Virus record (IMG/VR): IMGVR_UViG_3300021959_004274
Span: 28,188 to 92,187 of that record
Direction: 5' to 3' (one strand)
DNA length: 64,000 nucleotides
Origin: a virus
Shown: piece by piece, positions 1,065-51,668 of the stretch
Layout of the letters: every line of letters begins with the position of its first letter
How positions within the stretch are numbered: the stretch's first letter is position 1
Position numbers and translations under genes: made by a program
The notes under the pieces: generated by a model
Seen by the model: only the letters and a program-made list of their open reading frames with translations
What the model was told of the DNA's origin: nothing
Databases searched by the model: none

Positions 1065-2866
1065 TATTTTATATTCTTTGCAAAGTTTGATTTTGAAAAT
1101 CTTAAACGATCAACATACTTAAGGCCACCTGCTACATAACCTTCGTGTCCTGATTCTCCATCTATTGTAGCACTAATGCCGCCACCTTGTTGATCTAATG
1201 CTCTAACTATCTGTGTTTTAATAACAGCAATAGCATTGAATATGTTAAAAATTAATTCAACAACTTTTATATTCTCGCCTACATAGTTAGCAAGTCTTTC
1301 ACCTTTGCCTTGTGAAACTTTAGTTATTGCCCAATTAGCAAAGCTGTTGGCCATATTATTAAAGTTACCTTCTCTAACTTTAAAGTTAGCAAACTGTTTC
1401 ATTAATTGTGGCAAGTCTGATAGTTGTAATTCTCTTAATTTTCCTGGCATAAAGAAACGATCAATAGCTCTACTATTTGACAAAATCTTAGATTCAATTT
1501 GATCTAGTTTATCTGTTGGAACATCTACCTTAGGTGTTTCTTTCATTTTAGGGCCTACAAATAAGATAGGACCTGTAGGTAATTTTTCTATAGCATGGAA
1601 AGGTTGTCCTGCATCTTCTGGACCTGTTAAGAATGTGTGTATAGCAACACCTGCTTTACTTGCACCTATTTGTTTGCCTAGGTCAGTGTCTGCGTCAACT
1701 GAATATGTTACTGTGTTTGGCGTAAACACAAACTTACTACCTTGTTTTGCTGGTCTACCTGCATAGAGTAAATCGCCTTTAAAGAAACCTTGAAGGCCTT
1801 TAGGTGTTTGTGCTTCTAATGGTGCCCAAAGAGCTTTATACATATTAATTAATTCAGTACGATCGCCACCACGCATCAGCATAATTTTTTCTAGTTCTTC
1901 TGGACTTGTTGCTAGTCCAGAGTATGACTTAGCAGTAAAGCCTGACTTGTCTGTTAATATAAACTTACCGTTGCTGTCTCGGCCAAATATAATTGCTGGC
2001 TTGCCATCCCATTTAATTGTAATGTCTTGTGCTGAATTTGGCAACCATTTTAGATCTCTTATAGCACCTAGAGCACCGTGACTAGCATCATTGAATATCA
2101 TATCTTCTGGATGTTCAATTCTTGCCGCTTCTGTAATAACTTTCATTCCTAGGTTAACTAATCTATCTCTTGTATGTGCAATCCAATTAACTTCTGTTGA
2201 TTCAAACTGTAGTCCATCTTTTTCAAATGACTCTCTAGCATCTGCTACCAATGATTCGTATTCAGGGTCTTTACGTGCTTGTGCTAGTATACTTTCCACA
2301 CTGGCTAAATCTTTACGTGAGCCACCAATTAGCATTTTAGCAATTTCGTCTGGCTTGTTTGATATAACTTTGTTTGTTTCTCTTGACACTAGTCCATACT
2401 TGTATGACCACTTCATACCTCTAGCTTTAGCAATACTGGCTAATAAGATAGCACGGTGTACACCTTTGTATTCTGAATCTGGTGATGCGTTTAACGCAAA
2501 CTGTTGCCATTTAGGATCACCAAACATAAAGTCTACTTGTACATAGCCGTCTTGTGGATCACCGTTGATAGGACATTTATAGTGTACTGAGTCACCTGAC
2601 TTAGCAACGTCAGTGCTATTAACACCTTTTGATATTAGTTTATTATATAATTCGTCTTTGGTATGCTTACTAGCATCAACTGCTAGATCTAAATCACCTG
2701 ACGTAGGCTTCTTACCTGTTGAACCTAGCATGTTATCTAGTAAAGGTAATCCTGTTAGTGATTCAAGATATTTTACAGTTGGCTTAACATCAACAAGATT
2801 AATTCTTTGTGTTAAAGGATTGCCTTGTTGATCTTTAAATACGTTGCCGCCCTCAAATAGTTCCAT
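1064..2866 (-). CDS. Nucleotidyltransferase and ligase-like fusion protein, 600 aa
   Basis: Seen: residues about 48-112 carry a polymerase-beta/MNT-type nucleotidyltransferase signature, with GS at 48-49, a DLD pair (D58, D60) and a third carboxylate in VDF (D112). Residues about 281-412 resemble a covalent nucleotidyltransferase (DNA/RNA ligase) core: IKWDG with the candidate adenylated Lys285 (motif I), FFKGDLLY at 361-368 (motif III-like) and AGVAIHTF near 405-412 (motif IV-like). I could not locate a convincing motif V. Proteins of this layout occur as uncharacterised proteins in marine T4-like phages, as I recall. Inference: an end-modifying or sealing enzyme for nucleic acid, possibly tRNA or RNA repair. 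Coupled by TAATG junctions to both neighbours. Confidence 0.6.
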   Translation of the reverse strand: MELFEGGNVFKDQQGNPLTQRINLVDVKPTVKYLESLTGLPLLDNMLGSTGKKPTSGDLDLAVDASKHTKDELYNKLISKGVNSTDVAKSGDSVHYKCPINGDPQDGYVQVDFMFGDPKWQQFALNASPDSEYKGVHRAILLASIAKARGMKWSYKYGLVSRETNKVISNKPDEIAKMLIGGSRKDLASVESILAQARKDPEYESLVADARESFEKDGLQFESTEVNWIAHTRDRLVNLGMKVITEAARIEHPEDMIFNDASHGALGAIRDLKWLPNSAQDITIKWDGKPAIIFGRDSNGKFILTDKSGFTAKSYSGLATSPEELEKIMLMRGGDRTELINMYKALWAPLEAQTPKGLQGFFKGDLLYAGRPAKQGSKFVFTPNTVTYSVDADTDLGKQIGASKAGVAIHTFLTGPEDAGQPFHAIEKLPTGPILFVGPKMKETPKVDVPTDKLDQIESKILSNSRAIDRFFMPGKLRELQLSDLPQLMKQFANFKVREGNFNNMANSFANWAITKVSQGKGERLANYVGENIKVVELIFNIFNAIAVIKTQIVRALDQQGGGISATIDGESGHEGYVAGGLKYVDRLRFSKSNFAKNIK

Positions 2867-3423: not shown

Positions 3424-3658
3424 CTTTACGTCTCACTGACCGAGCAAATTTTTTAGGGTCTCTTGATTTGATGGCGTTAACAAACTTACGCTGTAAATCT
3501 TCTGCTTGTTCTCGAGTGTAAAGATTATCGATTTGTTCAAAAATATTGATAGCAGACTGGATTATGTTATTAGCACGACTCTCAACTAGGTGATTTTTGT
3601 CTTTGCTAATGTGCATTGAGCTCAATTCATCTAAAATACTTTTTGTTTTACGTTGCAT
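3413..3658 (-). CDS. Small conserved-type phage protein, 81 aa
   Basis: Short charged helical protein (MQRKTKSILDELSSMHISKD... RSVRRKDED). It is the first gene after a late promoter box (GATAAATA at 3683-3690, 24 nt upstream), with GGAAAC as the probable ribosome binding site. So it is likely expressed late with the following three or four genes. Function unknown. Confidence 0.6.
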   Translation of the reverse strand: MQRKTKSILDELSSMHISKDKNHLVESRANNIIQSAINIFEQIDNLYTREQAEDLQRKFVNAIKSRDPKKFARSVRRKDED

Positions 3659-6082: not shown

Positions 6083-6798
6083 TAAGTTAGTATAACATCA
6101 TTTATTTGAGAATACAACATTTCTGATAAAATTTGGTGACCTTTTTCATTTGGATGATGTCCGGGTGCGTGTATTTGTTTTGTATCTGTACGTGCTTGTA
6201 GTATGTCTTGTAAGTTTTGGTCAGGCCATTCTAGTGTATCTGTATACTCTACCAGAGTTCCAGGATTATATAAGTTAAATTGCATCAACGGAATATTTTT
6301 AGTTTTACTGATACCATCAAAAAAATAAACTGCTTGTTGATAGTTTAGTTTTGATAGCTCATCGCAGTGGCTTAGTGTTAGGTATTGTTTACCAAATTGT
6401 TGCCATTCTTTAGGAATAACATCACTACCAAAGTTTACCCAAGTAGAATGTACATATTTGTTCCACGCTGGATCATTTGAATAACTTACATGTTCTGGAT
6501 TATACCAAGTTTGTCTATCTGGTGCAGTTAGTCCTACTAAACAAAGAGTATCTGACCAATCTGTATTTTCTAAAAACCAAAGGAAGTTCCACATTGTACT
6601 TTGTAGGCTGGCACCTGGGTGTCCATAATTTTCGTAAGGTACACCAAGTTTATCTGCTATGAGTCCTGAAAAGCAATGACTAAGCCTGTAGTCATCATTT
6701 TGTGTAAAGCAACACTCCCATTCAGGATGCGAGGGATCTACTAGTTCATCACCGTAAATCCAACTATCGCCAAATACGGCTAGTTTTTTAATGTTCAA
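6082..6798 (-). CDS. SGNH/GDSL-like hydrolase, 238 aa
   Basis: Block I is GDSW at 10-13 with the nucleophile Ser12, and the C-terminal block is GHHPNEKGH with the catalytic-type His. Between them a typical alpha/beta hydrolase pattern is seen (NYGHPGAS, LVGLTAPDR). Such proteins remove acyl groups from lipids or polysaccharide. In a phage this could act on host surface sugars or on virion glycans; this is inference. The start appears to be TTG placed directly after the TAG of the upstream structural gene, with no clear RBS, so translation is probably coupled. Confidence 0.7.
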   Translation of the reverse strand: MNIKKLAVFGDSWIYGDELVDPSHPEWECCFTQNDDYRLSHCFSGLIADKLGVPYENYGHPGASLQSTMWNFLWFLENTDWSDTLCLVGLTAPDRQTWYNPEHVSYSNDPAWNKYVHSTWVNFGSDVIPKEWQQFGKQYLTLSHCDELSKLNYQQAVYFFDGISKTKNIPLMQFNLYNPGTLVEYTDTLEWPDQNLQDILQARTDTKQIHAPGHHPNEKGHQILSEMLYSQINDVILT

Positions 6799-7551
6799 CT
6801 ATCTAATTTTTACGTCTGTTATACTACCAGATGTTTTCTCAATGGTTAATCTTAAGTAAGGATGAAACCCATTGATATTTATATAGCCTGTAGTTGATGA
6901 GGCAGATAATGCTACAGCAGATCCTATGTCGTACCATGGACCACTAGTGTCAACAGTACCTTCTACTTTTATATTACCTGTAAATGTACTTGGAGTATAT
7001 TGTAATGTTTGTAAGCCTTGATCATTACTGGTCCAAGTTGATGAATTAAATGTTGATACGTTACCATGATTAGGAATAGTAATTGAACGACTTGCTGTGT
7101 GAGCAGGCATAACAGAATCTAAGATTTCAACAACGCCACGGGCACCGGCATTGTCATCTACAAATCCAGGATTGTATATTGCACTTGAACTTTGTTTACG
7201 TTCAAGCGTATAGTATCCTGTCTGTGCTGATACTATATCAAGTTCAGCTTCTGTTATTGTAACCTTAGCTCGACCTTTGACTAGGTCAATGGCTTCTAGG
7301 TCTTTACTTAGAATTAATTCATCACCGTTACTGTGAATTAATCTAAATGTTACTGTTGTATCTGTTAGCGATACTGGCTTCTGATCTTGATTAACGAATC
7401 TAAACGTTAATACATTGTCAGTGCCTTTATGAAGTTTTAAATCTTTTGCGTACACGGGTGCCCACCTCACTGAAGTTATGTTCGTGTTGGAATAATCATT
7501 TAATATTACCAACTGGTCCTGATTATATAAATAGACTTGAGTATTATACAT
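6799..7551 (-). CDS. Probable virion protein (baseplate or fibre type), 250 aa
   Basis: Beta-rich protein. Residues about 35-120 look like the N-terminal domain of phage BppU-type proteins, with alternating strands such as VTFRLIHSNGDELILSK and RAKVTITEAE. The C-terminal third is a discoidin-like beta domain that contains TPSTFTGNIKVEGTVD and GFHPYLRLTIEKTSG. The ATG begins 6 nt after a late box (GATAAATA, 7558-7565) and no Shine-Dalgarno is present, suggesting a leaderless late mRNA. Exact virion position unknown. Confidence 0.55.
   Translation of the reverse strand: MYNTQVYLYNQDQLVILNDYSNTNITSVRWAPVYAKDLKLHKGTDNVLTFRFVNQDQKPVSLTDTTVTFRLIHSNGDELILSKDLEAIDLVKGRAKVTITEAELDIVSAQTGYYTLERKQSSSAIYNPGFVDDNAGARGVVEILDSVMPAHTASRSITIPNHGNVSTFNSSTWTSNDQGLQTLQYTPSTFTGNIKVEGTVDTSGPWYDIGSAVALSASSTTGYININGFHPYLRLTIEKTSGSITDVKIR
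7526..7533 (+). promoter_or_regulatory. T4-type late promoter, TATAAATA (plus strand)
   Basis: Perfect TATAAATA on the plus strand, 35 nt before the ATG at 7569. It lies inside the 5' end of the opposite-strand gene, so the two divergent late promoters (this and 7558-7565) overlap their transcripts. Confidence 0.65.
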
Positions 7552-7557
7552 ATAACA

Positions 7558-7565
7558 TATTTATC
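7558..7565 (-). promoter_or_regulatory. T4-type late promoter, GATAAATA, predicted leaderless
   Basis: On the minus strand GATAAATA is followed by 6 nt and then ATG at 7551. With T4 late spacing, the transcript start falls on or next to the start codon. Confidence 0.6.
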
Positions 7566-14504: not shown

Positions 14505-14540
14505 TTTTTAATCTCCGTATTTAAGCATGCCTTGCTACGT

Positions 14541-15260: not shown

Positions 15261-16096
15261 TGTAGTCTATTGTACCAAACACCATTTTTAATTTCATCCA
15301 CTGTATATTCTGTATGTGCTATTTCAACGTACCATTGTGTTCTATCTGGAATAACAGGATCGTCTAAGTCAGTGTACTTATTACTACATGGATAGGCTAG
15401 ACTAGTTTCATCAACAATAACTGGACAGCCCTGTATCAAACTTTGTACAGCAGGTCCTGCTGAATTATAGTTTACTGTTGCCCAATAGTTAAATTTAAGA
15501 TCAAAGTCATCATAGGTATCGGATAATTTTTGAGGTGTTTCAAATTGATAATCTAAAAACTCTGTTCTATCAAACACTGATCTAGGATGTGGCCTAATAA
15601 CCATGGGTCTATCTGTGTGCTGTTCAATTGTTTGTATTTCTTCTTGTAACCAATGTTCTATACCGTGTAGTTCGCTTACTTGTTCACTTTTAGCGTGTTG
15701 TAGACAAATTAGTATAGGTTCTTTAGCATAGTGTCTACGCTGTGGTGCTAGTTCCGGTAAGCCTAGTTTCTTTGGTCTATCCCAATCTAAATTAACAGTA
15801 TGTCCGTAATGACCTTGTGCTGTGATGTGGTTTACGGCTACTTTCCAGGTAAAGTTGCGTTGTAGGGCGCCTACTTCAAGGATTAGACATGGTTTATTAA
15901 GGTTTTTGAAGTGCTGATAAACATCATAGTTGCCACGCATACGACCTGCCCATAAGCAAGACCATATAACGGCTATGTCTGCATTTAAATCGTTTTCAAC
16001 TATTCTGTAATGTTTCTTTGCACTCTCTAAGAATGCTTCTATGACCGGCTTTGAGTTTAAACTACAATAGTCCGGAAAATACGTAAGTGTTTTCAT
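15245..16096 (-). CDS. GT-B-like sugar transferase paralog 1, 284 aa
   Basis: The start at 16096 (MKTLTYFPDYCSLN) is used because the frame upstream runs into the divergent gene. The C-terminal part has MVIRPHPRS, then TVNYNSAGPAVQSLIQGCPVI and a CSN cluster, a layout that resembles capsule polysaccharide (KpsS/KpsC-like) transferases. The same C-terminal block is in the proteins at 16944 and 17873. N-terminal LNADIAVIWSCLWAGRM looks like a Rossmann half-domain. Acts presumably on the same glycan as its neighbours. Confidence 0.6.
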   Translation of the reverse strand: MKTLTYFPDYCSLNSKPVIEAFLESAKKHYRIVENDLNADIAVIWSCLWAGRMRGNYDVYQHFKNLNKPCLILEVGALQRNFTWKVAVNHITAQGHYGHTVNLDWDRPKKLGLPELAPQRRHYAKEPILICLQHAKSEQVSELHGIEHWLQEEIQTIEQHTDRPMVIRPHPRSVFDRTEFLDYQFETPQKLSDTYDDFDLKFNYWATVNYNSAGPAVQSLIQGCPVIVDETSLAYPCSNKYTDLDDPVIPDRTQWYVEIAHTEYTVDEIKNGVWYNRLQWAIE

Positions 16097-16101
16097 ATGT
16101 G

Positions 16102-16109
16102 TGTAAATA
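16102..16109 (+). promoter_or_regulatory. Possible late promoter, TGTAAATA, predicted leaderless
   Basis: TGTAAATA on the plus strand, then exactly 5 nt to the ATG at 16115. One mismatch from TATAAATA; the spacing is the same as in the other leaderless candidates. Confidence 0.45.
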
Positions 16110-16114
16110 CTTAT

Positions 16115-16954
16115 ATGAGATATGCTGTCATCACTACATTTCACCCACCAGGATTAACACAATACGCACAAACAATGATTGACACGTTTGAGCAATATTG
16201 GCCAGACACGGTGGACTTATACTGCTATGCAGAAGACTGCAAACCCATAACTACTAAACCTAATGTACACATCTTTGATTTGCATCAACGTTGCCTTGAT
16301 CTGGTTAACTTTAAGAATAAATTTAAAAATGTTCCGTGGGCTAATGGACTGCAGATGAAAGAGTCTGGCCTGCCATTTAAAGACAATAACTTTAAGTGGG
16401 ATGCCGTTAGATTTAGTAATAAAGTATTTACCGTAATTGATGCTTGTACCACACTAGATTATGACTGGGTAATATGGTTAGATGCTGACTCAAAAACGTT
16501 TGCACCTGTAACTGAATCATTCTTAGCAGAAGTATGTCCTAGTAGCAATTTTGTTAGTTACCTAGGTCGTAGAGCCAAATATCATAGCGAATGTGGCTGG
16601 GTAGCATATAACACAAAACATCGTGACTGTCAGGACTTTATGTCTTCTTGGAAAGACTTATATGTTAACGAAGGTATATTTAATTTAAAAGAGTTTCATG
16701 ACAGTTATGTATTTGATGTACTACGTCAGCAATATCAGCAAACAAAAAATACAGAATTCTTTAACCTGTCGCCCGAGCTACAAGGCAAAGGTCCAGGGCA
16801 TCCTTTTATTGCTAGTAAGTTAGGAACAGTAATGGATCATATGAAAGGCACCAGGCGTAAAGAGCTAGGACACAGTTTATCTGATGATGTTACTATAAAA
16901 AATCAAGGAATAAATCAAAACGTTGATTACTGGAAATCAGTTATTAAGACTTAG
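16115..16954 (+). CDS. GT-A type glycosyltransferase, 279 aa, plus strand
   Basis: Start at 16115 (MRYAVITTFHPPG). Has a DxD in DYDWVIWLDADSKTF (D123, D125) and an upstream AVRFSNKVFTVIDA, the usual donor-binding layout of GT-A enzymes. It sits within a minus-strand island of similar function, reversed. It ends 11 nt inside the 3' end of the opposite gene. No Shine-Dalgarno is seen. Sugar and acceptor are unknown. Confidence 0.68.
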   Translation: MRYAVITTFHPPGLTQYAQTMIDTFEQYWPDTVDLYCYAEDCKPITTKPNVHIFDLHQRCLDLVNFKNKFKNVPWANGLQMKESGLPFKDNNFKWDAVRFSNKVFTVIDACTTLDYDWVIWLDADSKTFAPVTESFLAEVCPSSNFVSYLGRRAKYHSECGWVAYNTKHRDCQDFMSSWKDLYVNEGIFNLKEFHDSYVFDVLRQQYQQTKNTEFFNLSPELQGKGPGHPFIASKLGTVMDHMKGTRRKELGHSLSDDVTIKNQGINQNVDYWKSVIKT

Positions 16955-17876: not shown

Positions 17877-19621
17877 TTACTATACCACTCCTGTAATAAT
17901 CTCCAGGCTGTACCGTCCTGAAGTTCACCTTGCGTAAATTGATGATAGGCAAGATTACAAAGTAGATAGTATACTTCATCTTCTGTTGGTATAACTGGTG
18001 TTTCTAATAAACTAAGATCGTTTGAACACAACGGCGAGGCCGCATTTTGTCCTAATACAAAAGCAGGCTTACCTTCCATTAAAGATTCAACAGCGGCTAT
18101 TGAATTATAAGTTACTGTACAATGTACGTCATCCAGGAGAGCTTTTTGTATGGTATCTTCAAGCACACGTTCCTTTCTTGTTTTCTTTAAACGTATCTCA
18201 ATGGGCCTATCTGTATATTTTTCAATTTCTTTTATAGTTGTTTCCATCCAGACATCTAAATCTTCACCATAAAAGCTCATAGCTTTATCACTAGGAGGTA
18301 CTACTAATATCTTACTGCCTGATGTAAACTTTTTAGTATATCCGTTTGCTTTAGTAAAACGGTCACTGGGCACATCTCTTAACTCTCCGCAATACTGTAA
18401 ACTATTTTTAGTTACTCTATGCCATAGTTTTGATTTACCGTTGCCATAGTAGCCAGTATCAACAAAATAAAAGTCTCTATTCTTTTCTCGGCACCAATCA
18501 AAGATGTGTCGTTTGGTTATACCTCTAAACACAATAGGTCTAGTATCCTGATCAGCATGTCCTTCGTAAACTGTTTTCCAATCAGTCAAACTTCCGCCTG
18601 CGCCTGTAGTAAAAAAATCTACTACTTTGTCCCACTTATAACCTTTTTTAATCAATGATTCACTTAATTCTTCCATATCGCTTATTCCTAATACTGAATC
18701 TGTTTTGTGATGATTTTTTAATCTATTAACAAAGTCTGCTAACTTAGGTGTATCATCATATACATGATGTACATCGTCTAATATTTTTTTAAGATCTGTA
18801 AAATACTTTTTATATTCTATAGAATATTGAAGTTGATCTACTCCAACTATTCTTTTTAAGTCTTGTTCTTGCTGTTGGTTATATTCGTCTAAATACTCTA
18901 ACCAAAGATCACCATACTGTACTTGACTCCAACTGCCTATGCCTGCTAGTTGATATTCTTTAGGTAAGGTATTGTCGTCAAACCAAGGACCGCCATCTGT
19001 ATAATGTATGGCACCAGGTTTACCCCAATCCTTTTCTTCATAATAACCTGACAACCAGTTCCAAGTTGGTTGTAAAAATCTTATATTAGATTCTTTTGTC
19101 CATTCAAATCTATGTAAGTAACTTAGCGGTTGTTTATTAATATTATCTAAACTCAGTCTACGACAATCTCTATGCTCACAATTAAATACCATCATCGACG
19201 ACCAATTCTTTTTAGGATACACAGACTGTGTTTTACCGTCCATTTTTAATTTTGTTTTTGGACTGTATCCATAATTTTCATGAGGAACTACAGAAACAGA
19301 ATTGCCAAACTCATCAATATTGTCGTAAACTTCTTTAATATCTTGTGTCCATAAAAAATCACAGTCACAAAATATTGCTTTACCTTGATAGTTCATTAAG
19401 TAAGGAACTAAAAATCTTGTGTAAGTAAATTCTGTTGATGCTGTATGTTCACGCTTACGTGTTATTATCTTGTCACGTTCTAGCTCATCTAGTTTGAGGT
19501 AATGTATTTTAACAGGAGCAGAAGCGTGTTTTAATATGCTGTAGGCACAAACATCTGCGGCTATGGGTTCACGTGAATCCCATCCTATAAAAACATTGAT
19601 TACTGTATGAGGTATTGACAT
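17873..19621 (-). CDS. Bifunctional GT-A plus GT-B-like glycosyltransferase, 582 aa
   Basis: Residues about 1-240 form a family 8-like GT-A domain: IGWDSREPIAADV near 12-24, STEFTYTRFLVPYL, and the metal site FCDCDFLW (D86, D88). Residues about 330-582 are the third copy of the GT-B-like domain: VDTGYYGN, IEIRLKKTR, TVTYNSIAAVESLMEGKPA, a CSNDL cluster and GELQDGTAWRLLQE. The two are joined by a charged linker around 240-320. Presumably two successive sugar additions by one protein. A weak late-like box lies at 19650-19657. Confidence 0.68.
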   Translation of the reverse strand: MSIPHTVINVFIGWDSREPIAADVCAYSILKHASAPVKIHYLKLDELERDKIITRKREHTASTEFTYTRFLVPYLMNYQGKAIFCDCDFLWTQDIKEVYDNIDEFGNSVSVVPHENYGYSPKTKLKMDGKTQSVYPKKNWSSMMVFNCEHRDCRRLSLDNINKQPLSYLHRFEWTKESNIRFLQPTWNWLSGYYEEKDWGKPGAIHYTDGGPWFDDNTLPKEYQLAGIGSWSQVQYGDLWLEYLDEYNQQQEQDLKRIVGVDQLQYSIEYKKYFTDLKKILDDVHHVYDDTPKLADFVNRLKNHHKTDSVLGISDMEELSESLIKKGYKWDKVVDFFTTGAGGSLTDWKTVYEGHADQDTRPIVFRGITKRHIFDWCREKNRDFYFVDTGYYGNGKSKLWHRVTKNSLQYCGELRDVPSDRFTKANGYTKKFTSGSKILVVPPSDKAMSFYGEDLDVWMETTIKEIEKYTDRPIEIRLKKTRKERVLEDTIQKALLDDVHCTVTYNSIAAVESLMEGKPAFVLGQNAASPLCSNDLSLLETPVIPTEDEVYYLLCNLAYHQFTQGELQDGTAWRLLQEWYSK

Positions 19622-26831: not shown

Positions 26832-28637
26832 TTACCAATTGATTAATGTTTTTAATCTCTCAACGTAGTTTTCTTCTACTTTATATATTTTACCATCTAC
26901 TTCAAACTCTTTTTTGCCATCACGTTTAGCGTTAGCAAGTGCTAATGAAAATTCATTACCTTCGTCTACATCATCTTCGTTAACTGCGTCAGGTTGTACA
27001 TTTGAAATAGCAGTTCTTAACAGTTTACCAGTTTCAGTTCTAAACTCAACTGCTTCGTCTGTTACTGTTTCAACTGTACCTTTAGTACCTTTGACTGTAA
27101 CAATTTGATCACCTACTGATGGTGTGTATTCTTCTGTTACTGTATCTTCAGCCGCTAATACACCTGCCAGGTCTTTCATTTTACCAATATATGCTGGTTT
27201 GTCTGGATCCTGGTTTAAGCCTGGAGTTTTAACTTCTTCCCAATCTGACTTTTTACTTTGATACTTTTTCTCAAACTCTTCGTCTGATAGTTCTTCTAAG
27301 TCTAGGTGTAGCTCTTTCATTTTACCTTCTTCAAGTTCTACATCTTCCATTGGCACATCAGCGTCTCTTGCGTCCCACTCTGCGTCTGCATCTTCTTGAG
27401 CCGCTTCTAATGCTTCGTTGTGTAACTCGCCGCCTGGCTGTACCATTTGTGTACACCATTCGTCTGTTAGTTTATTGTTGCCGTCACCGTTACACCAAGC
27501 ATTTAATGATTTAGGATCTACAAATGCTTTATTTTGTTCTTTATCAACAACTACTGTGTAGCGTACACCACCGTAGCCTGGTTCACCATCATCACCAGCA
27601 AATTCCCATTCCATTTCGCTTTCCCATGAATCTGGATCAAAACCTTCGTTTACATCGTATGACATTTCTTCTGCCCACGATTCAAATTCTTTAATTTCTT
27701 TCATTGACTTACCCTCTAGTTCAAGTTTAGCCAACACTGGTATTGCTGACTCTACTCTTTGATCTAATAATCTTTCAGTAAATAATTCACGCACACGTTC
27801 CACTACTTCTTGTTGTGGTTGTTCACTGCTGTTGTATTCTTCAAATGCTTTATGATATCCACGTTTACCAATCATTGATTTAACTTTACGTTTAATATCC
27901 CCAAAGTGTCTAAGGCCACGTTCTGCAAGTTCTGTTGATTCAGAGTCTTGCCAGTCCTTACCACGTGCATATCTAGTAAAAGCACCTAGTGTTTCAATAT
28001 CACTAACCAGTTCACAAATGTACTGACCAAATGAGTCATATGGATTACCACCTTCACTTACATGTCTTGCCATAGCACGACCACCATATAGTTTATTAAA
28101 TGGTAGTTTGAAACGTTCGCCATCTGATGTTTCAACGTAAAGTGCGGCTACATTTCTGTATCGCTGATCACCTTGTTCTTCATCAATTGGTCTTGAATGT
28201 ACTATTTTAAGTTTTGCTTCTTTAGTAGGTCTTGTGTATGATGTCTTTTTAAATCCGTAGTATTTTGATTCAGTGACTTGTGCCATTGTTTGCATAGCAA
28301 ATTTTAGTTTATTCATATGTTTTAGACTAAACTCTAACATGTTACGTTTAGCAAAGTGGCGTAATTGATATAAAAAGTCATACCAATCTTTTTTATCTTC
28401 TGAATCCATACCTTTACCAAGCACATCACCATAGTAAACTTCTAACTCGCCTTTAGGGTTAATAGTAACTACTACTGTGCCGTAGTTTTGTTCTCCAACT
28501 TTATAGCTAAATGAGAATAAGTCTGCCTGTGTAGCATCAGATGTTTCTTTGCCTTTTGCGTCACGAGTGGTTAACTCAAAACTCTTAGCAACAAGTAGGT
28601 CAAACAGTTTCTGTCTTGTGTCTTCTAATGATATCAT
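26832..28637 (-). CDS. Large hypothetical phage protein, 601 aa, late
   Basis: The N-terminal half (about 1-280) is alpha/beta, with YNYSYK-type strands and basic stretches; residues about 350-470 are acidic; residues about 515-560 resemble a KOW/SH3-like barrel (YTPSVGDQIVTVKGTKGTV). I recall homologs as hypothetical proteins in marine T4-like phages. The ATG starts exactly 5 nt after a late box (28643-28650), with no RBS, and a terminator follows, so it is a monocistronic late gene. Probably virion or virion-associated; not shown. Confidence 0.6.
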   Translation of the reverse strand: MISLEDTRQKLFDLLVAKSFELTTRDAKGKETSDATQADLFSFSYKVGEQNYGTVVVTINPKGELEVYYGDVLGKGMDSEDKKDWYDFLYQLRHFAKRNMLEFSLKHMNKLKFAMQTMAQVTESKYYGFKKTSYTRPTKEAKLKIVHSRPIDEEQGDQRYRNVAALYVETSDGERFKLPFNKLYGGRAMARHVSEGGNPYDSFGQYICELVSDIETLGAFTRYARGKDWQDSESTELAERGLRHFGDIKRKVKSMIGKRGYHKAFEEYNSSEQPQQEVVERVRELFTERLLDQRVESAIPVLAKLELEGKSMKEIKEFESWAEEMSYDVNEGFDPDSWESEMEWEFAGDDGEPGYGGVRYTVVVDKEQNKAFVDPKSLNAWCNGDGNNKLTDEWCTQMVQPGGELHNEALEAAQEDADAEWDARDADVPMEDVELEEGKMKELHLDLEELSDEEFEKKYQSKKSDWEEVKTPGLNQDPDKPAYIGKMKDLAGVLAAEDTVTEEYTPSVGDQIVTVKGTKGTVETVTDEAVEFRTETGKLLRTAISNVQPDAVNEDDVDEGNEFSLALANAKRDGKKEFEVDGKIYKVEENYVERLKTLINW

Positions 28638-28642
28638 AAGTG

Positions 28643-28650
28643 TATTTATC
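28643..28650 (-). promoter_or_regulatory. T4-type late promoter, GATAAATA, predicted leaderless
   Basis: Minus strand GATAAATA followed by CACTT and then ATG at 28637, so the transcript is predicted to begin at the start codon. Confidence 0.65.
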
Positions 28651-30226: not shown

Positions 30227-30421
30227 TCACTTCCTTGGCATTGGATTTTCACCAGTTAGATGGGGTTGTGCAAACCATAACTTAAACCATTCAGGTGTAC
30301 CTGGCTGTATATTATGTTTTTTCATATACTCGCTTTTCTCGGTGGCAGTGTAACTCATATTTTCTCCCATAGTAGGAGTTGAGTTTACACCTGCCAAGTG
30401 TTTAAGCTCTTCTATATTCAT
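30227..30421 (-). CDS. Small conserved protein upstream of gp17, 64 aa
   Basis: Ends in PGTPEWFKLWFAQPHLTGE, a segment I recall as a conserved small gene next to gp17 in marine T4-like phages. It may help packaging or bind the terminase; function unproven. Adjacent gene spacing of 1-5 nt supports coupling with gp17. Confidence 0.62.
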   Translation of the reverse strand: MNIEELKHLAGVNSTPTMGENMSYTATEKSEYMKKHNIQPGTPEWFKLWFAQPHLTGENPMPRK

Positions 30422-30425
30422 ACTA

Positions 30426-31076
30426 CTATTTAACGTCTATTGGTCTCTTTTTAACTGCTACTATGCCGTATGCTTTTTCTGCAAACGTTTGTTCTGTTGC
30501 TTTATCTAGTGCTTGTGATTCTAAGGTATTTGTTATTTCAATATCAAACCCTGCTTTAACTATTAGATTCATTAGCATACGATCTGTCATTACAGAATAG
30601 TTGTTTGGATGTGCTTCGTGGTTTCTTACATTATGTGGTTGTGCTGTTTCTATATACAACTTACCTTTTTGTTTTAACACTCTATTAAATTCTAACAATG
30701 TAATATAAGGAAATGGTGATTTTTCTAAATCACGTCTACAGTAAATAAAGTCAACACTTTCGTCCTTATCTGACAAAAAACTAGTATGTTCGTAACGAAC
30801 TTTGTGCCCTTTATCTTGACAAAGCTGAACTTCATCTTTAAATGATGTAATGCCTGTAACATTTTTATATTTTTCTTTTTTTGCTACATCTAAAAAGTAA
30901 CCTGCTGAGCAACCTATATCTAATATTGTTGCTGTTTTTTTAATTTTAAGAGGTTTAATCATAAGATTATAAACTTCTTCTGTTGTTATTTTATTGAATT
31001 CATTTTCAGGTTCAGCTATACGCTGTGTTTGAATAAATTCATTATAGAGCTTAAATTTTACTGTGTCGAACTTCAT
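30426..31076 (-). CDS. Class I SAM methyltransferase, 216 aa
   Basis: Motif I ATILDIGCSAGYF (DIGCSAG about 53-59), motif II-like VTGITSF, and a motif IV-like SVDFIYCRRDLEKSPFPY; C-terminal EITNTLESQ. Resembles small-molecule or sugar methyltransferases more than DNA-base enzymes (no NPPY-type motif). AAGGAAA upstream. Together with the next gene (a sulfotransferase) it forms a small modification pair inserted between gp17 and other genes. Confidence 0.7.
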   Translation of the reverse strand: MKFDTVKFKLYNEFIQTQRIAEPENEFNKITTEEVYNLMIKPLKIKKTATILDIGCSAGYFLDVAKKEKYKNVTGITSFKDEVQLCQDKGHKVRYEHTSFLSDKDESVDFIYCRRDLEKSPFPYITLLEFNRVLKQKGKLYIETAQPHNVRNHEAHPNNYSVMTDRMLMNLIVKAGFDIEITNTLESQALDKATEQTFAEKAYGIVAVKKRPIDVK

Positions 31077-37641: not shown

Positions 37642-38001
37642 CTATACCTGCACATTTCTGGCAGCATAGTAATTAGGTTGTTGAACTACACTGACACCAA
37701 TAAGAGTTGACTTTGATCTTAATCCATTAAGATAGTATGCTAGAGTAGCATTCACAGTAACGCCGTCTTGGCCTTTGAATTCTTCTAAAAGTTCTAGTGG
37801 TGGTTTTTCGTAACCTGTTGCAATTTGAAAAAACACTGCTGTAAAATCATCAGCAATTTTTGCATCACGAAATGTTTGTGCAAAGAATCCTCTAACAATA
37901 TCATATTCGTTAGGGTTTACTTTGATTTCTTTTTTATAAAAATTGTCAAAGATTAAATAAGATGAATCAGACGTTGATTTTTTTACGTTAACTGTTCCCA
38001 T
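37642..38001 (-). CDS. Hypothetical protein, 119 aa, probable virion
   Basis: Sequence SYLIFDNFYKKEIKVNPNEYD, FFAQTFRDAKIADDFTAVFFQ and a C-terminal ATLAYYLNGLRSKSTLIGV. Located between a tail-tube-like gene and gp4. The upstream GTTAAATA box with a 5 nt spacer before ATG resembles the leaderless late layout, although an AAAGG is also present. No family recognised. Confidence 0.58.
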   Translation of the reverse strand: MGTVNVKKSTSDSSYLIFDNFYKKEIKVNPNEYDIVRGFFAQTFRDAKIADDFTAVFFQIATGYEKPPLELLEEFKGQDGVTVNATLAYYLNGLRSKSTLIGVSVVQQPNYYAARNVQV

Positions 38002-38022
38002 GTTTATATTTAACCTTTAAAA

Positions 38023-40119: not shown

Positions 40120-43100
40120 TTATAAATTACCTGCTTCAATATCGCCAGTATTTTTAATTCTTACTGGAATATAAATAAACTCAACTGCTTTAGTTGGTTC
40201 AATAGCAATATCAATATAAAGTTCATTTCTATCAATACGTGCTGGTGTGTTGTTTGTTTCATCACAAACAACTAGGTAATCGTAAATACCACGTTTAGCA
40301 GTAACATCGTTTAATAGTTGCTCAATTGCACCTTTAACTTCATCACGTGTGATCTTGTCGTTTGGTTCAAACATCCAGTTTTTACCAACTGCTTCAAGTT
40401 TCTTACGTAAGTAAGCAACTAAACGTGACACGTTAATTCTGTCTAGTGCTGATGAAGCACCTGCAACAGTTTTGTTACCATAGTTAGTTAAACCACTACC
40501 TGGAATAAATGTTAGTGGATTAACTCTGTTTTCGTATAATGTATCTCTTGCTGATTCTCTGTTAGCAACTTGTACAAAGTCACCTGTTTGAGCGTCAACA
40601 TAACCTAATGCTGATACGTTATCAATTAAGCCACGTCTGTTACCAGCCGGTGCTAACCATGGATAACCAATTTCGTCATTTCTAATAATTGTTCTTAACA
40701 TCGCATGTGATGCTGGAACAACCACTGAGTTACCTGATAAGTCGTTTGCTCTACCTGATGGGTAAAACACAGCCGCATATGGATCGTTAGTAACCAAACC
40801 GTCTTCTGAATCAGTTCCTAAACCGCCTGCGTCTGTTGCCCAGTTAATTATTTCTTCTGAATTGTCTGACAATCTAAACGGTGTATCACCAACAACAAAA
40901 CCAGTGTTGTTTCTGTCGTTGTTTAATAGCACCATGTTTTGCATTAATTCAGGATAACCTGGACATGCTAATAAGTTAAAGTCTCTTTGTTCTTCACGGA
41001 TTGCTGTATTTGTGTCAATACCTGCTTTAAGAGCCGCTACAACTAATTGACGTTGTGCTTTTCTGCCCATGTATGGTGAACCATCTGCACGATTTCCTGA
41101 AACAGTTACCCATGCATCTTTCTGTGATGGTAATGTATCATCAGGGAATGTTGTGCTGTTAAAGTAGTTTACTTTATATTCTTTAACGTTGTAACCTGAA
41201 CGTCTTGTATTGAATAACAATGTACCTGCTGGATATAATGCTGGAGTTGGTGCATCAATATCTAAATAGTTACTTGTTGTTAACGCAGTAATTGTTGCTA
41301 TGTCGCCTGTAATAGGATCAACTGTACCTGCTGTTGACCAACGAGCATCTGCAAATACAATACCGTTTTCAGTTGTTTGATCAGCGTTATCAATAGTTAC
41401 CCATTGATCTGTACCATCAACAGCCTCCCAACGTTTAATTAATGGATAGTTTTCTAAATCTGAAGTATCTAACCATAAGTCACCGTATGCTAATGCTGTT
41501 TTAGCAGTATCGTTTTGTGTAGTAGGAGCACTTGCACCAACTTGGATACCTTTAGCATTGGTATTTGATAAATCAAACCCACGTACATCATTAGTTACGT
41601 TTCTATAACCTTTCCAGTTTGAACCATCATGTATCATAACATCTACTTCATCAATTGCTGAATAGTACCATTTTGTACCATTTGCTGGATCTTGTGTTGG
41701 TTCAGAACCTTTTGCTTCATATGTTAATGTATTCCAGTTTGAAATAATTACACTCAGAAGATCTGCTGATGATCTCATGTTGCCTGATAATTGTGAAATA
41801 CCAGTTACGCCATACGCATCCTGTGTTGGTGTACCAACTGTGTCTGTAATTTTAATTACTCCACCTTGTGTATGTTTGATTGTTAAGTAACCATCTGTTA
41901 CACTAGCAACTGTATTAGCAACGTTAGCCGCATTAAATGCCGCCGCATAGTCAGCAATAGTAGTACCTGATAGTGTAGCAGTTACTGGAGTTGACATTGT
42001 AGTTGAACCTTTAACACTTGCTGAAATAGTAAATGCGTCAGCGTTTGTCATTGTAGGACTTACTACAGTTGATGTGGCTACTGTGTCACCTGTTTGTGAA
42101 CGTACATGTAATTTTAATGTAGCAGTGTAGTTTTCTGACCAATCTAAGTAGCCGTATACAACACCTGCTGAAATGTTTCTACCGCCACCAGCGGCATCAA
42201 GTTCTTTGTTTGCTGTGGCATCATCAGCATATAAAGGAACTGTTAATGTAGCCCATGAGTCTGTGTTTACATCATATTGTTTAACAACAATGTTAGCACC
42301 TTGGTTAACTGAAGTTGTTTTCTGCCATAAAGATCCTGTTGGTCTTGGAGCAGTATCAGTTGTTTTCCAACGTGGTAATTCTGTGTGTTTTCCTTGTACA
42401 AATTCAGGAGCGTAATATGTTCCTGCTGTAATACCTAAATCTGTTAACAGTGTACCTGTACCGTTAGCAATAGTCCATGCGCCGTCTGCTGATGAACCTT
42501 CTGGAGTTACGTCTGAGTCAGCATAAATTTCTAACTTACCGTTAACAGCCGCGGCTGTTATACCTGTAATATTATTTGAATTAATTTCTGCCGCTAATGT
42601 TGTAACTGTAGTACCTGTTGAAGTAACAGTTGTGCCATTAATCACTAAAGTATGACCACCTGTTAACACTGGGTTTGTTGTACTACTTTGCACTGAGTAG
42701 TGAGCATTTTGCCAATCGTCTGAACCAACTAACACCCATGTGTTATCTGATTTTTTATAGTAGACAGGGTTTGATGCGTTTGTTGTAACAACAGCATAAT
42801 CACCAATTGCACCAACTGATGAGTTAGGCACACCTGCTGTTACATCATCTGTTGATGTAATAGCTATTGGTTTTTTGTTTGTAAATTTACCTGTTGTTTT
42901 GCTCCACTCAAATAGACCCCATTCTGTTTCTGTAGTGTCTAACCAATATGAGTTATCGTCTGCATCGCCTGCTGGACGAGTTAATCTTGCTGTTAAGCCT
43001 GCTAAGTCAATATCAACACGTTGAATATAAGCTCTGTTAGAAACACCTAACACTGAGTGAGCCGCTAATAAACCATATTCATTTAATTCATAACCGTTAA

Positions 43101-43350
43101 GCGGAGTACCACTTGTCGTTGAATAAAAGAATGGATTACCATATAGTGTTGCTAATTCTCTTTGGCTAGTAATTAATTGTACTTTGTTTGCGTTAGCCGC
43201 AGTTGTTGCTGAAGCTACGCCAGTTCCTGTACCACTTATCTTGTTTTGTGCTGTTGCGATAAGCATGTATGGAATCGAATTTGATGCGGAAGGTAAGTAT
43301 TGACTTTCGTCAACTATACTTACTTCTACGCCTGGGGATACTAATGCCAT
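40120..43350 (-). CDS. 18: Tail sheath protein (gp18-like), enlarged, 1076 aa
   Basis: The N-terminus (SPGVEVSIVDESQYLPSASN) and C-terminus (LVAYLRKKLEAVGKNWMFEPND, YIDIAIEPTKAVEFIYIPVRI) are the conserved gp18 core, with the canonical C-terminal half from about 720. T4 gp18 has 659 aa; this protein has an about 500-residue insertion from about 120 to 690 built of beta-rich modules with repeated xWxDxxx WVxV patterns, perhaps surface domains. RBS AGAGG; late box at 43396-43403. Confidence 0.9.
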   Translation of the reverse strand: MALVSPGVEVSIVDESQYLPSASNSIPYMLIATAQNKISGTGTGVASATTAANANKVQLITSQRELATLYGNPFFYSTTSGTPLNGYELNEYGLLAAHSVLGVSNRAYIQRVDIDLAGLTARLTRPAGDADDNSYWLDTTETEWGLFEWSKTTGKFTNKKPIAITSTDDVTAGVPNSSVGAIGDYAVVTTNASNPVYYKKSDNTWVLVGSDDWQNAHYSVQSSTTNPVLTGGHTLVINGTTVTSTGTTVTTLAAEINSNNITGITAAAVNGKLEIYADSDVTPEGSSADGAWTIANGTGTLLTDLGITAGTYYAPEFVQGKHTELPRWKTTDTAPRPTGSLWQKTTSVNQGANIVVKQYDVNTDSWATLTVPLYADDATANKELDAAGGGRNISAGVVYGYLDWSENYTATLKLHVRSQTGDTVATSTVVSPTMTNADAFTISASVKGSTTMSTPVTATLSGTTIADYAAAFNAANVANTVASVTDGYLTIKHTQGGVIKITDTVGTPTQDAYGVTGISQLSGNMRSSADLLSVIISNWNTLTYEAKGSEPTQDPANGTKWYYSAIDEVDVMIHDGSNWKGYRNVTNDVRGFDLSNTNAKGIQVGASAPTTQNDTAKTALAYGDLWLDTSDLENYPLIKRWEAVDGTDQWVTIDNADQTTENGIVFADARWSTAGTVDPITGDIATITALTTSNYLDIDAPTPALYPAGTLLFNTRRSGYNVKEYKVNYFNSTTFPDDTLPSQKDAWVTVSGNRADGSPYMGRKAQRQLVVAALKAGIDTNTAIREEQRDFNLLACPGYPELMQNMVLLNNDRNNTGFVVGDTPFRLSDNSEEIINWATDAGGLGTDSEDGLVTNDPYAAVFYPSGRANDLSGNSVVVPASHAMLRTIIRNDEIGYPWLAPAGNRRGLIDNVSALGYVDAQTGDFVQVANRESARDTLYENRVNPLTFIPGSGLTNYGNKTVAGASSALDRINVSRLVAYLRKKLEAVGKNWMFEPNDKITRDEVKGAIEQLLNDVTAKRGIYDYLVVCDETNNTPARIDRNELYIDIAIEPTKAVEFIYIPVRIKNTGDIEAGNL

Positions 43351-43403: not shown

Positions 43404-43452
43404 CTATTAGCCCTAAAACTGCCTGTTTAAAGTGCCTTTGCAAAGGTTTTGC

Positions 43453-43460
43453 TATAAATA
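43453..43460 (+). promoter_or_regulatory. T4-type late promoter, TATAAATA, predicted leaderless
   Basis: TATAAATA on the plus strand then exactly 5 nt (CCTAC) before ATG at 43466. Just upstream is a perfect 12 bp palindrome CCTTTGCAAAGG (43435-43446). Confidence 0.62.
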
Positions 43461-43465
43461 CCTAC

Positions 43466-43813
43466 ATGAATCGCCCTATATGCAAGGCTTGTAACCATCA
43501 CCCAGCCGCTATTAACTATAAGAAGGAAGGTAAGACACATTACCGTAGCCGTTGTGCGATCTGCATAAACAAACATCGTAAAATTAAAACACCTACACCT
43601 AGGTGGTTAATCAAAGGATATAAGAAAAAATTAAACTGTGATATTTGTAGTTTTAGAGCAAAGCACGGTAGTCAAATACAAGTCTACCATATAGATGGAA
43701 ACTTAAACAATAACGAATTAATTAATTTAAGATCGGTTTGTTTAAATTGTGGTGTGATTATACAGAGGCAGGATTCAACATGGAAGCCTGGAGATCTTGC
43801 TCCAGATTCCTAA
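43466..43813 (+). CDS. HNH-like zinc-ribbon nuclease, 115 aa
   Basis: ATG at 43466 lies 5 nt after a perfect late box; a 34-residue longer frame is less likely. Motifs: CKACNHHP, YRSRCAICIN, CDICSFRA, VYHIDGNLNNNELINLRSVCLNC (HNH-like His and Asn residues with two zinc-ribbon pairs). I recall homologs as small HNH-type proteins in marine phages. Its 3' end overlaps the opposite gp1 gene by 56 nt. Confidence 0.68.
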   Translation: MNRPICKACNHHPAAINYKKEGKTHYRSRCAICINKHRKIKTPTPRWLIKGYKKKLNCDICSFRAKHGSQIQVYHIDGNLNNNELINLRSVCLNCGVIIQRQDSTWKPGDLAPDS

Positions 43814-50632: not shown

Positions 50633-51655
50633 TTATAGGCCCCACTTGTTGCTCAAGTAGTTCTCGATGTTCTGTATCTCTGCGGAGGTCAATGCCTTCT
50701 TGAACAGTATGGCCTCCGCTATGTAGCCTTCCATACCTTTTACTCCGCCGCCGTTCTCGTTGCCTAGGTCAAATGTTGTCTGTGATGCGTTGGTTGTTGC
50801 ACCAACTGTGCCTGTGAATGATAATGTTTTAGCAGTCTTGTCTTTTCTATACGCCAATCTTGCGGCATTGCCAGTCTGACTACCGTCAAATGCCAATGTG
50901 TGTATAGCCCAATTAGTGTTGGCTTCACTGGCTACTGTGGCTGTTACTCCTTCCATACCCACTGTCATAGCCGTGCCGTCAGCAAACATTTTTAGGTCAC
51001 CGCTGTTAGTGTCTGTCAGGTGCTTGATGCCCGTGGTGTCGACAAACTTGCTGACTATAAACATAGTAAATCCTGGTTGGCTTTGTAAATCTGTAAATGG
51101 GTTAATAGTCAAGTGATCATTACCGTCAAACTCTAGATAGCCATAGCCGTTCAATGGAACAGTATTTTCATAACTTGGACGTCTGGTTGCACCACCGCTT
51201 GGGTTAGCGTTGTGTGCCAATACAGACTTGTCAGTCCATTGTGTTATGTCTTGTTCATCTGTCGCACTTGGAACAAATTGATCAGTGTCAGCACCGTCAT
51301 ACCAGAACTGCAAGGTTACAAATGTTGTTGGAGCAACCGCTTCTTCAGGGTTTTCTACTGGATCTGGCAACACGCCCAATGGGGCTGATCCCCATGGTCT
51401 TCCTAAGGTTAACACTCCGCCGTCCACTGTGTTGTCAACAACTGTGTTGCTGGAATACTTGGTTGGTAGGAGGTTGATGTTCTCGACATTCAATTGTCTA
51501 TAATAGTTTTGTGTGCTGTCCAGGCTACCCGTGATGGAGTAGGAACCAGCACTGGCAGTAACTGTTTTGCCTTGGCGTTTAGCTTCAGCGATCTCTAGTT
51601 TCTGCTCTTGCTTGAGTTGTTTTGTTGATTGTGTTGATATTCCGTTAAGTGCCAT
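50633..51655 (-). CDS. Probable fibre/receptor-binding protein with LamG-like domain, 340 aa
   Basis: ATG at 51655 (MALNGISTQSTKQLKQ) follows a late box by 5 nt with no RBS. Residues about 115-340 look like a concanavalin/LamG domain: LQFWYDGADTDQFVP, YLEFDGNDHLTINPFTD, FTMFIVSKFVD, AEAILFKKALTSAEIQNIENYLSNKWG. Likely on the virion surface, binding host sugar. Monocistronic late. Confidence 0.62.
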   Translation of the reverse strand: MALNGISTQSTKQLKQEQKLEIAEAKRQGKTVTASAGSYSITGSLDSTQNYYRQLNVENINLLPTKYSSNTVVDNTVDGGVLTLGRPWGSAPLGVLPDPVENPEEAVAPTTFVTLQFWYDGADTDQFVPSATDEQDITQWTDKSVLAHNANPSGGATRRPSYENTVPLNGYGYLEFDGNDHLTINPFTDLQSQPGFTMFIVSKFVDTTGIKHLTDTNSGDLKMFADGTAMTVGMEGVTATVASEANTNWAIHTLAFDGSQTGNAARLAYRKDKTAKTLSFTGTVGATTNASQTTFDLGNENGGGVKGMEGYIAEAILFKKALTSAEIQNIENYLSNKWGL

Positions 51656-51660
51656 ATAAC

Positions 51661-51668
51661 TATTTATC
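51661..51668 (-). promoter_or_regulatory. T4-type late promoter, GATAAATA, predicted leaderless
   Basis: Minus strand GATAAATA, GTTAT, then ATG at 51655. Same 5 nt spacing as other leaderless genes. Confidence 0.65.

Follow-up and report, generated by a model that had tools for sequence, protein, structure and literature searches.

Introduction

Late transcription in phage T4 is a textbook system, and its products are assumed to be mRNAs led by a Shine-Dalgarno (SD) sequence. What, then, happens at late genes whose promoter box lies so close to the start codon that it occupies the position of the SD? This question is raised by a 64,000-nucleotide stretch of viral DNA (the window; bases 28188-92187 of a 92,187-bp IMG/VR contig, G000, which is itself a fragment), in which a first-pass annotation had read late boxes five or six nucleotides before start codons as promoters of leaderless late mRNAs. 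The T4 late box spans -13 to -6 and has no -35 element (PMC2988020), so an mRNA initiated after five spacer bases would begin with the A of the ATG, and the match to T4 +1 geometry claimed in that annotation agrees with the published positions. Here, we describe a late box that stands at exactly this spacing (N5) far more often than expected, precedes annotated gene starts, keeps the length of its spacer between orthologues and also occurs in a bidirectional form. These observations support the leaderless interpretation, and we consider it probable (roughly 0.85) that this phage group makes leaderless late mRNAs, alongside SD-led ones, from gp55-type late promoters that are fused to start codons.

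Results

All five boxes and start codons of the first-pass annotation are found in the window, four at N5 and one at N6. On the minus strand, the late -10 box GATAAATA at 28643-28650 precedes the ATG at 28637 of a predicted leaderless gene for a virion structural protein (phrog_13484; 26832-28637), and the same box at 51661-51668 precedes the ATG at 51655 of a second one (phrog_10356; 50633-51655), both at N5. A third GATAAATA box (7558-7565, minus strand) lies at N6 from the ATG at 7551 of a BppU_N-like virion or baseplate protein (6799-7551, minus strand), whose mRNA is predicted to be leaderless or to have a 1-nt leader. On the plus strand, TATAAATA at 43453-43460 stands at N5 before the ATG at 43466 of a small HNH-endonuclease-like protein (43466-43813, predicted leaderless), and the late-type box TGTAAATA at 16102-16109, which deviates from NATAAATA by a G at -12, stands at N5 before the ATG at 16115 of an ORF with no PHROG or Pfam match (16115-16954, predicted leaderless), for which an in-frame ATG at 16097 is an alternative start. 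Two further minus-strand cases, both with a T at -12, were absent from the earlier annotation: the box GTTAAATA at 38007-38014, at N5 before the ATG at 38001 of a predicted leaderless gene for a 119-aa protein adjoining the tail-tube gene (37642-38001), and, with low confidence, a box-like GTTAAATA at 30427-30434, at N5 before the ATG at 30421 of a 64-aa ORF (30227-30421). The latter case is weaker and doubtful, as the upstream stop codon and the box share bases.

The box at 43453 is divergent from the tail sheath gene, which has its own box at 43403-43396 (minus strand). The sheath (40120-43350, minus strand) is unusually long at 1076 aa, as compared with 659 aa in T4, and the sheaths of Atu_ph07 and Phosso are near 1076 aa. 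A few bases ahead of the 43453 box, at 43435-43446, lies a perfect palindrome, CCTTTGCAAAGG; many relatives have related palindromes (CCCTTTTAAAGGT, AAAGG...CCTTT) ahead of the 43466 orthologue. This palindrome might terminate transcription in both directions or serve as an operator between the sheath and HNH-like genes.

The five genes had been set against eight other late genes of the window, said to have a box 20-45 nt upstream and a clear ribosome-binding site. The distances hold, and a clear purine-rich site (AAGGAG, GGAG or GAGG) is present in most of the eight, but it is weak at 3658 (ACGGAAAC). None of the five has an SD, as claimed, but this is partly forced by geometry, as the box takes up the SD position. 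In addition, several N5 genes sit within same-strand gene runs, and readthrough mRNA would carry them too.

Is the N5 spacing a chance product of A/T-rich DNA? In the window, TAAATA-N5-ATG occurs 7 times versus a mean of 2.2 (sd 1.3) in dinucleotide shuffles, and 0 of 100 shuffles reach 7. On the complete 92-kb contig, an ATG follows at exactly +5 after 6 of the 29 NATAAATA boxes (0.5 expected; p=1.2e-5), while every other offset from 0 to 12 has 0 or 1 ATG. All six of these ATGs open ORFs of at least 50 aa, and three lie outside the window (contig positions 14525, plus strand, and 28045 and 25197, minus strand).

A megablast of the first 25 kb against the 50,697 phage records of INPHARED found no near relatives. 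The tail sheath is of T4-superfamily type and closest to those of jumbo phages, e.g., PA5oct and Phosso. Using the sheath and the 51655 protein as queries, we retrieved 91 related IMG/VR loci, and the Pelagibacter phages HTVC008M and Mosig served as cultured comparison phages with the spike. Enrichment of N5 in relatives over control sequence had been set beforehand as a test of the leaderless reading, and the relatives show a sharp spike at +5: at 171 distinct NATAAATA sites in the 91 loci, 28 ATGs lie at +5 versus 0-8 at the other offsets below 16, with a separate broad leadered hump at 19-23 (near +18 to +24 for the relatives in general). The spike at +5 persists when -12 is G, C or T, whereas no peak appears for seven altered or permuted A/T-rich motifs and the sigma70-like TATAAT gives only a slight rise (23/603). 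The N5 starts in these loci group into 26 protein clusters, of which 24 correspond to real ORFs.

Among whole records the spike is clearest in G001-G003 and in the two cultured phages, where an ATG stands at +5 after 9 of 45 NATAAATA boxes (HTVC008M; p=1.6e-7) and 8 of 56 (Mosig; p=1.2e-5); the same trend is seen in the short fragments G004-G006, although their boxes are few. The peak is one base wide, the counts of ATAAATA-Nk-ATG for N4/N5/N6 being 1/9/1 in HTVC008M, 1/8/1 in Mosig and 3/18/3 in G002. In the spike-bearing records, starts at +5 with an ORF of at least 50 aa comprise 75 ATG, 0 GTG and 5 TTG. The GenBank annotation of HTVC008M makes no reference to the box, and all 12 of the phage's N5 ORFs of at least 50 aa begin exactly at annotated CDS starts, namely those of gp010, CsgF, gp019, head closure gp4, the tail-tube cap, a baseplate wedge protein, gp063, gp092, tail completion gp3, gp190, DNA-end protector gp2 and the tape measure. 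N5 ATGs of HTVC008M lie at 6280, 7562, 11972, 18943, 19456, 31132, 49760, 75559, 75830 and 142360 and, on the minus strand, at 16007 and 18916; those at 18916 and 18943 belong to one divergent element. Structural genes are headed by such boxes both in the window (virion proteins) and in HTVC008M (gp2, gp3, gp4 and tape measure). Spacing variants of N6 to N8 exist; an 8-nt secondary spacing is seen in one structural-protein family (MPRLSLY...; L057, L060, L062, L065) and in G006, and might reflect a 3-nt leader or a second-class start.

The spike is not a general property of T4-like phages: usable N5 gene starts were not found in T4, Syn9, S-PM2, P-RSM1, S-SM2, KVP40, phiM12, 121Q or Phosso, which rules out ubiquity, and ATAAATA-N5-ATG is absent, or present a few times with no peak, in S-PM2, P-RSM1, S-SM2, KVP40, phiM12 and Phosso. 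T4 has two exact ATAAATA-N5-ATG hits, both heading short ORFs only; its N5 hits among ORFs of at least 40 aa, one of them within uvsW, have T or C at -12. PA5oct has a mild N5 excess only. An alphaproteobacterial host is not a sufficient cause either, as phiM12, Phosso and Atu_ph07 infect alphaproteobacteria and have no spike. Melnitz has four N5 hits, and gp3, the one examined, looks leadered, its annotated start lying 17 nt past the N5 ATG with a weak SD between. There, at 129200-129258 (L383 1-59), a strong terminator hairpin is followed directly by TATAAATA and then by the N5 ATG, which is out of frame and is possibly a leaderless uORF or a chance occurrence.

In two of the related loci (L027 at 12275 and L029 at 11740), divergent terminase-like and HNH-like genes are separated by 24 bp, and this intergene region contains a single shared TATTTA-NN-TAAATA palindrome at N5 to both ATGs. 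These sites prompted an unbiased scan of 2.9 million IMG/VR viral contigs for CAT-Nk-TATTTA-NN-TAAATA-Nk-ATG, with other values of k as controls. For k=4/5/6/7 the scan returned 6/102/24/7 stretches, or 6/61/10/5 when only distinct sequences are counted; at k=5, ORFs of at least 50 aa open from 172 of 204 arms and fall into 48 families. With a 4-nt core gap, k=5 gave 82 stretches (ORFs on 144 of 164 arms) versus 14 for k=7 (6 of 28 arms), and gp2/gp4 of HTVC008M belong to this k=5 set. Two large contigs found by the scan, G009 and G010, have 27 and 26 N5 sites, as compared with 3 and 1 for reversed-pattern controls. The excess at k=5, with ORFs usually on both sides, suggests that a single 30-bp element drives two divergent leaderless genes.

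Orthologues keep the length of the spacer and not its sequence. In the 43466 HNH-like family, 14 of 23 distinct upstream regions have the box at N5 and 3 of 23 at N4, with N5 spacers as different as cctac, ctgct, accgt, actgt and ttagc. The gp2 and gp3 genes of HTVC008M and Mosig (39-44% identity) are all at N5 with different spacers, the 51655 orthologues in L085 and L089 retain N5 with other spacer sequences, and 10 of 18 orthologues of 38001 keep a TTAAATA box at N5 behind a variable spacer. A homologue of 16115 in G004 (38% identical) begins with CATAAATA-N5-ATG, and distant homologues of the 7551 protein in L236, L239, L305 and L324 are headed by bidirectional N5 promoters. Orthologues of 28637 (28-68% identity) carry the box either at 4-8 nt or, as a leadered form, at 19-23 nt, and such switching is what two alternative late modes predict. 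In several families some orthologues had no box near the start in this upstream comparison.

Discussion

How could a promoter that ends five bases before a gene express it? In the mechanism that we propose, a subset of gp55-type late promoters has become fused to start codons in this phage group, and RNA polymerase would initiate on the A of the ATG. Presumably, 70S ribosomes would bind the 5'-terminal AUG of the resulting leaderless late mRNA directly and so translate it, whereas the phage's other late genes would keep a 12-30 nt leader with an SD. Where two promoters overlap head to head, a 30-32 bp element (CAT-N5-TATTTA-N2/4-TAAATA-N5-ATG) would drive two divergent leaderless genes. It is known that 70S ribosomes attach to leaderless mRNAs at a 5'-terminal AUG, and such mRNAs are frequent in certain bacteria, among them alphaproteobacteria, to which SAR11 belongs (PMC9031893, PMC4117421).

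The position of the RNA 5' end at A+1 is carried over from T4 geometry, and both promoter activity and the translation route at N5 genes are deduced from sequence; several observations fit them. Behind distal boxes, A is preferred at the same +6 site in the spike phages (58%) and in T4 (59%). SD-like 4-mers are found at 4 of 59 N5 genes versus 108 of 177 distal-box genes, a difference that shows the lack of an SD and not its cause, as the box fills the SD position. The two late translation modes suggested by the first-pass annotation fit these two peaks, one at +5 with no SD and one at about +18 to +35 with an SD. Terminators lie upstream of 8 of 59 N5 boxes versus 10 of 177 distal boxes, which is supportive but based on few cases. 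Homologues of gp55 are encoded by HTVC008M, Mosig, G002, G007, G010 and G011; two PHROG profiles found none on the source 92-kb fragment or on the N5-rich G001 and G009, and the sigma factor is therefore presumed for these. A box with T or C at -12 departs from the canonical T4 promoter.

Could the motif act in translation instead? TAAATA-N5-ATG might be an A/T-rich, SD-independent initiation element on an mRNA that begins further upstream, as the N5 genes have no SD and A/T-rich unstructured start contexts can substitute for one in some bacteria. Such an element would not explain why the same 8-mer lies 17-35 nt ahead of SD-led genes in the same genomes, why permuted A/T-rich motifs give no spike, or why some boxes directly follow terminator-like hairpins, and at the palindromes that serve two divergent genes nothing upstream could be co-transcribed in both directions; we regard this explanation as very unlikely. 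Even less credible is that the promoters are real but initiate at +7 to +10 from the box, or further on, leaving the N5 ATG unused in favour of a downstream ATG. Melnitz gp3, with its later annotated start and intervening weak SD, would suit this arrangement, but gene callers place 12 of 12 HTVC008M starts on the N5 ATG, several families are homologous right to residue 1, and the spike is a single base wide. Least probable of all is coincidence, in which TAAATA merely supplies the TAA or TAG that stops an upstream gene, and close packing or translational coupling accounts for the 8-nt gap: an upstream stop does lie inside the box at 30434 and at HTVC008M gp013/gp014, and this might still hold for 30421, but it is contradicted at divergent pairs and fails for isolated opposite-strand genes (43466, 16115), pelagiphages prefer the full NATAAATA box, and the equally compact T4 and cyanophages do not have the pattern. 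Leaderless transcription from fused late promoters is thus our preferred reading.

Might the ribosome be adapted as well? A phage-encoded bS21 has been proposed to favour late phage transcripts (PMC9723584), and bS21 is encoded by the larger N5 phages tested (source contig, G001, G002, HTVC008M and Mosig). The bS21 gene of the source contig (L224; contig 1133-1381, minus strand, outside the window; PF01165, E=2.9e-20) has a late-type box, GGTAAATA, 27 nt upstream and a strong SD (AAGGAG). As a marker of the N5 mode bS21 is only suggestive, since Atu_ph07, Phosso and 2.275.O also carry it and have no spike. With somewhat less than even confidence, we suggest that a large, mostly aquatic T4-superfamily group including SAR11 phages runs a second late-expression mode, in which gp55-class promoters joined directly to start codons, frequently as 30-32 bp two-way elements giving two divergent leaderless mRNAs, would bypass SD recognition late in infection, possibly with phage bS21 on remodelled ribosomes.

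A lineage including SAR11 phages thus appears to fuse the late promoter with the start codon, even using one palindrome for two genes. The arrangement supplies an exact criterion by which late genes can be located, and start codons corrected, in the genomes of aquatic viruses. It also leads one to ask how phage mRNAs made late in infection compete for ribosomes; the cultured HTVC008M and Mosig make the idea testable. In the full-text literature searched, which included few subscription papers, neither leaderless late mRNAs nor late promoters fused to start codons were found described for T4-superfamily phages; this is only weak evidence that no such report exists. The components are known, whereas their systematic fusion, its restriction to a lineage and the two-way form seem to be new.

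How does this arrangement relate to known systems? T4 late promoters (sigma gp55, coactivator gp33 and sliding clamp gp45) likewise use a TATAAATA-type box as sole promoter element and serve structural genes, and a gp55 homologue is present in related phages. In T4, however, most late boxes are about 12-35 nt upstream of the ATG, with an SD, and no gene starts at NATAAATA-N5-ATG; compared with the T4 box, -13 is unconstrained in the phages described here, and -12 varies too in some relatives. The cyanomyoviruses S-PM2 and Syn9 share the same degenerate NATAAATA late box (PMC2984593), but the +5 spike is absent in Syn9, S-PM2, P-RSM1 and S-SM2. Leaderless mRNAs such as lambda cI and those of Caulobacter, Sinorhizobium and Mycobacterium resemble the N5 genes in having a -10 element near the ATG, a preference for AUG and no SD (PMC4117421, PMC9031893). 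Those known cases involve bacterial sigma factors or single phage repressor genes, whereas here the arrangement seems to involve the promoter class of a phage late sigma factor and the genes of the virion.
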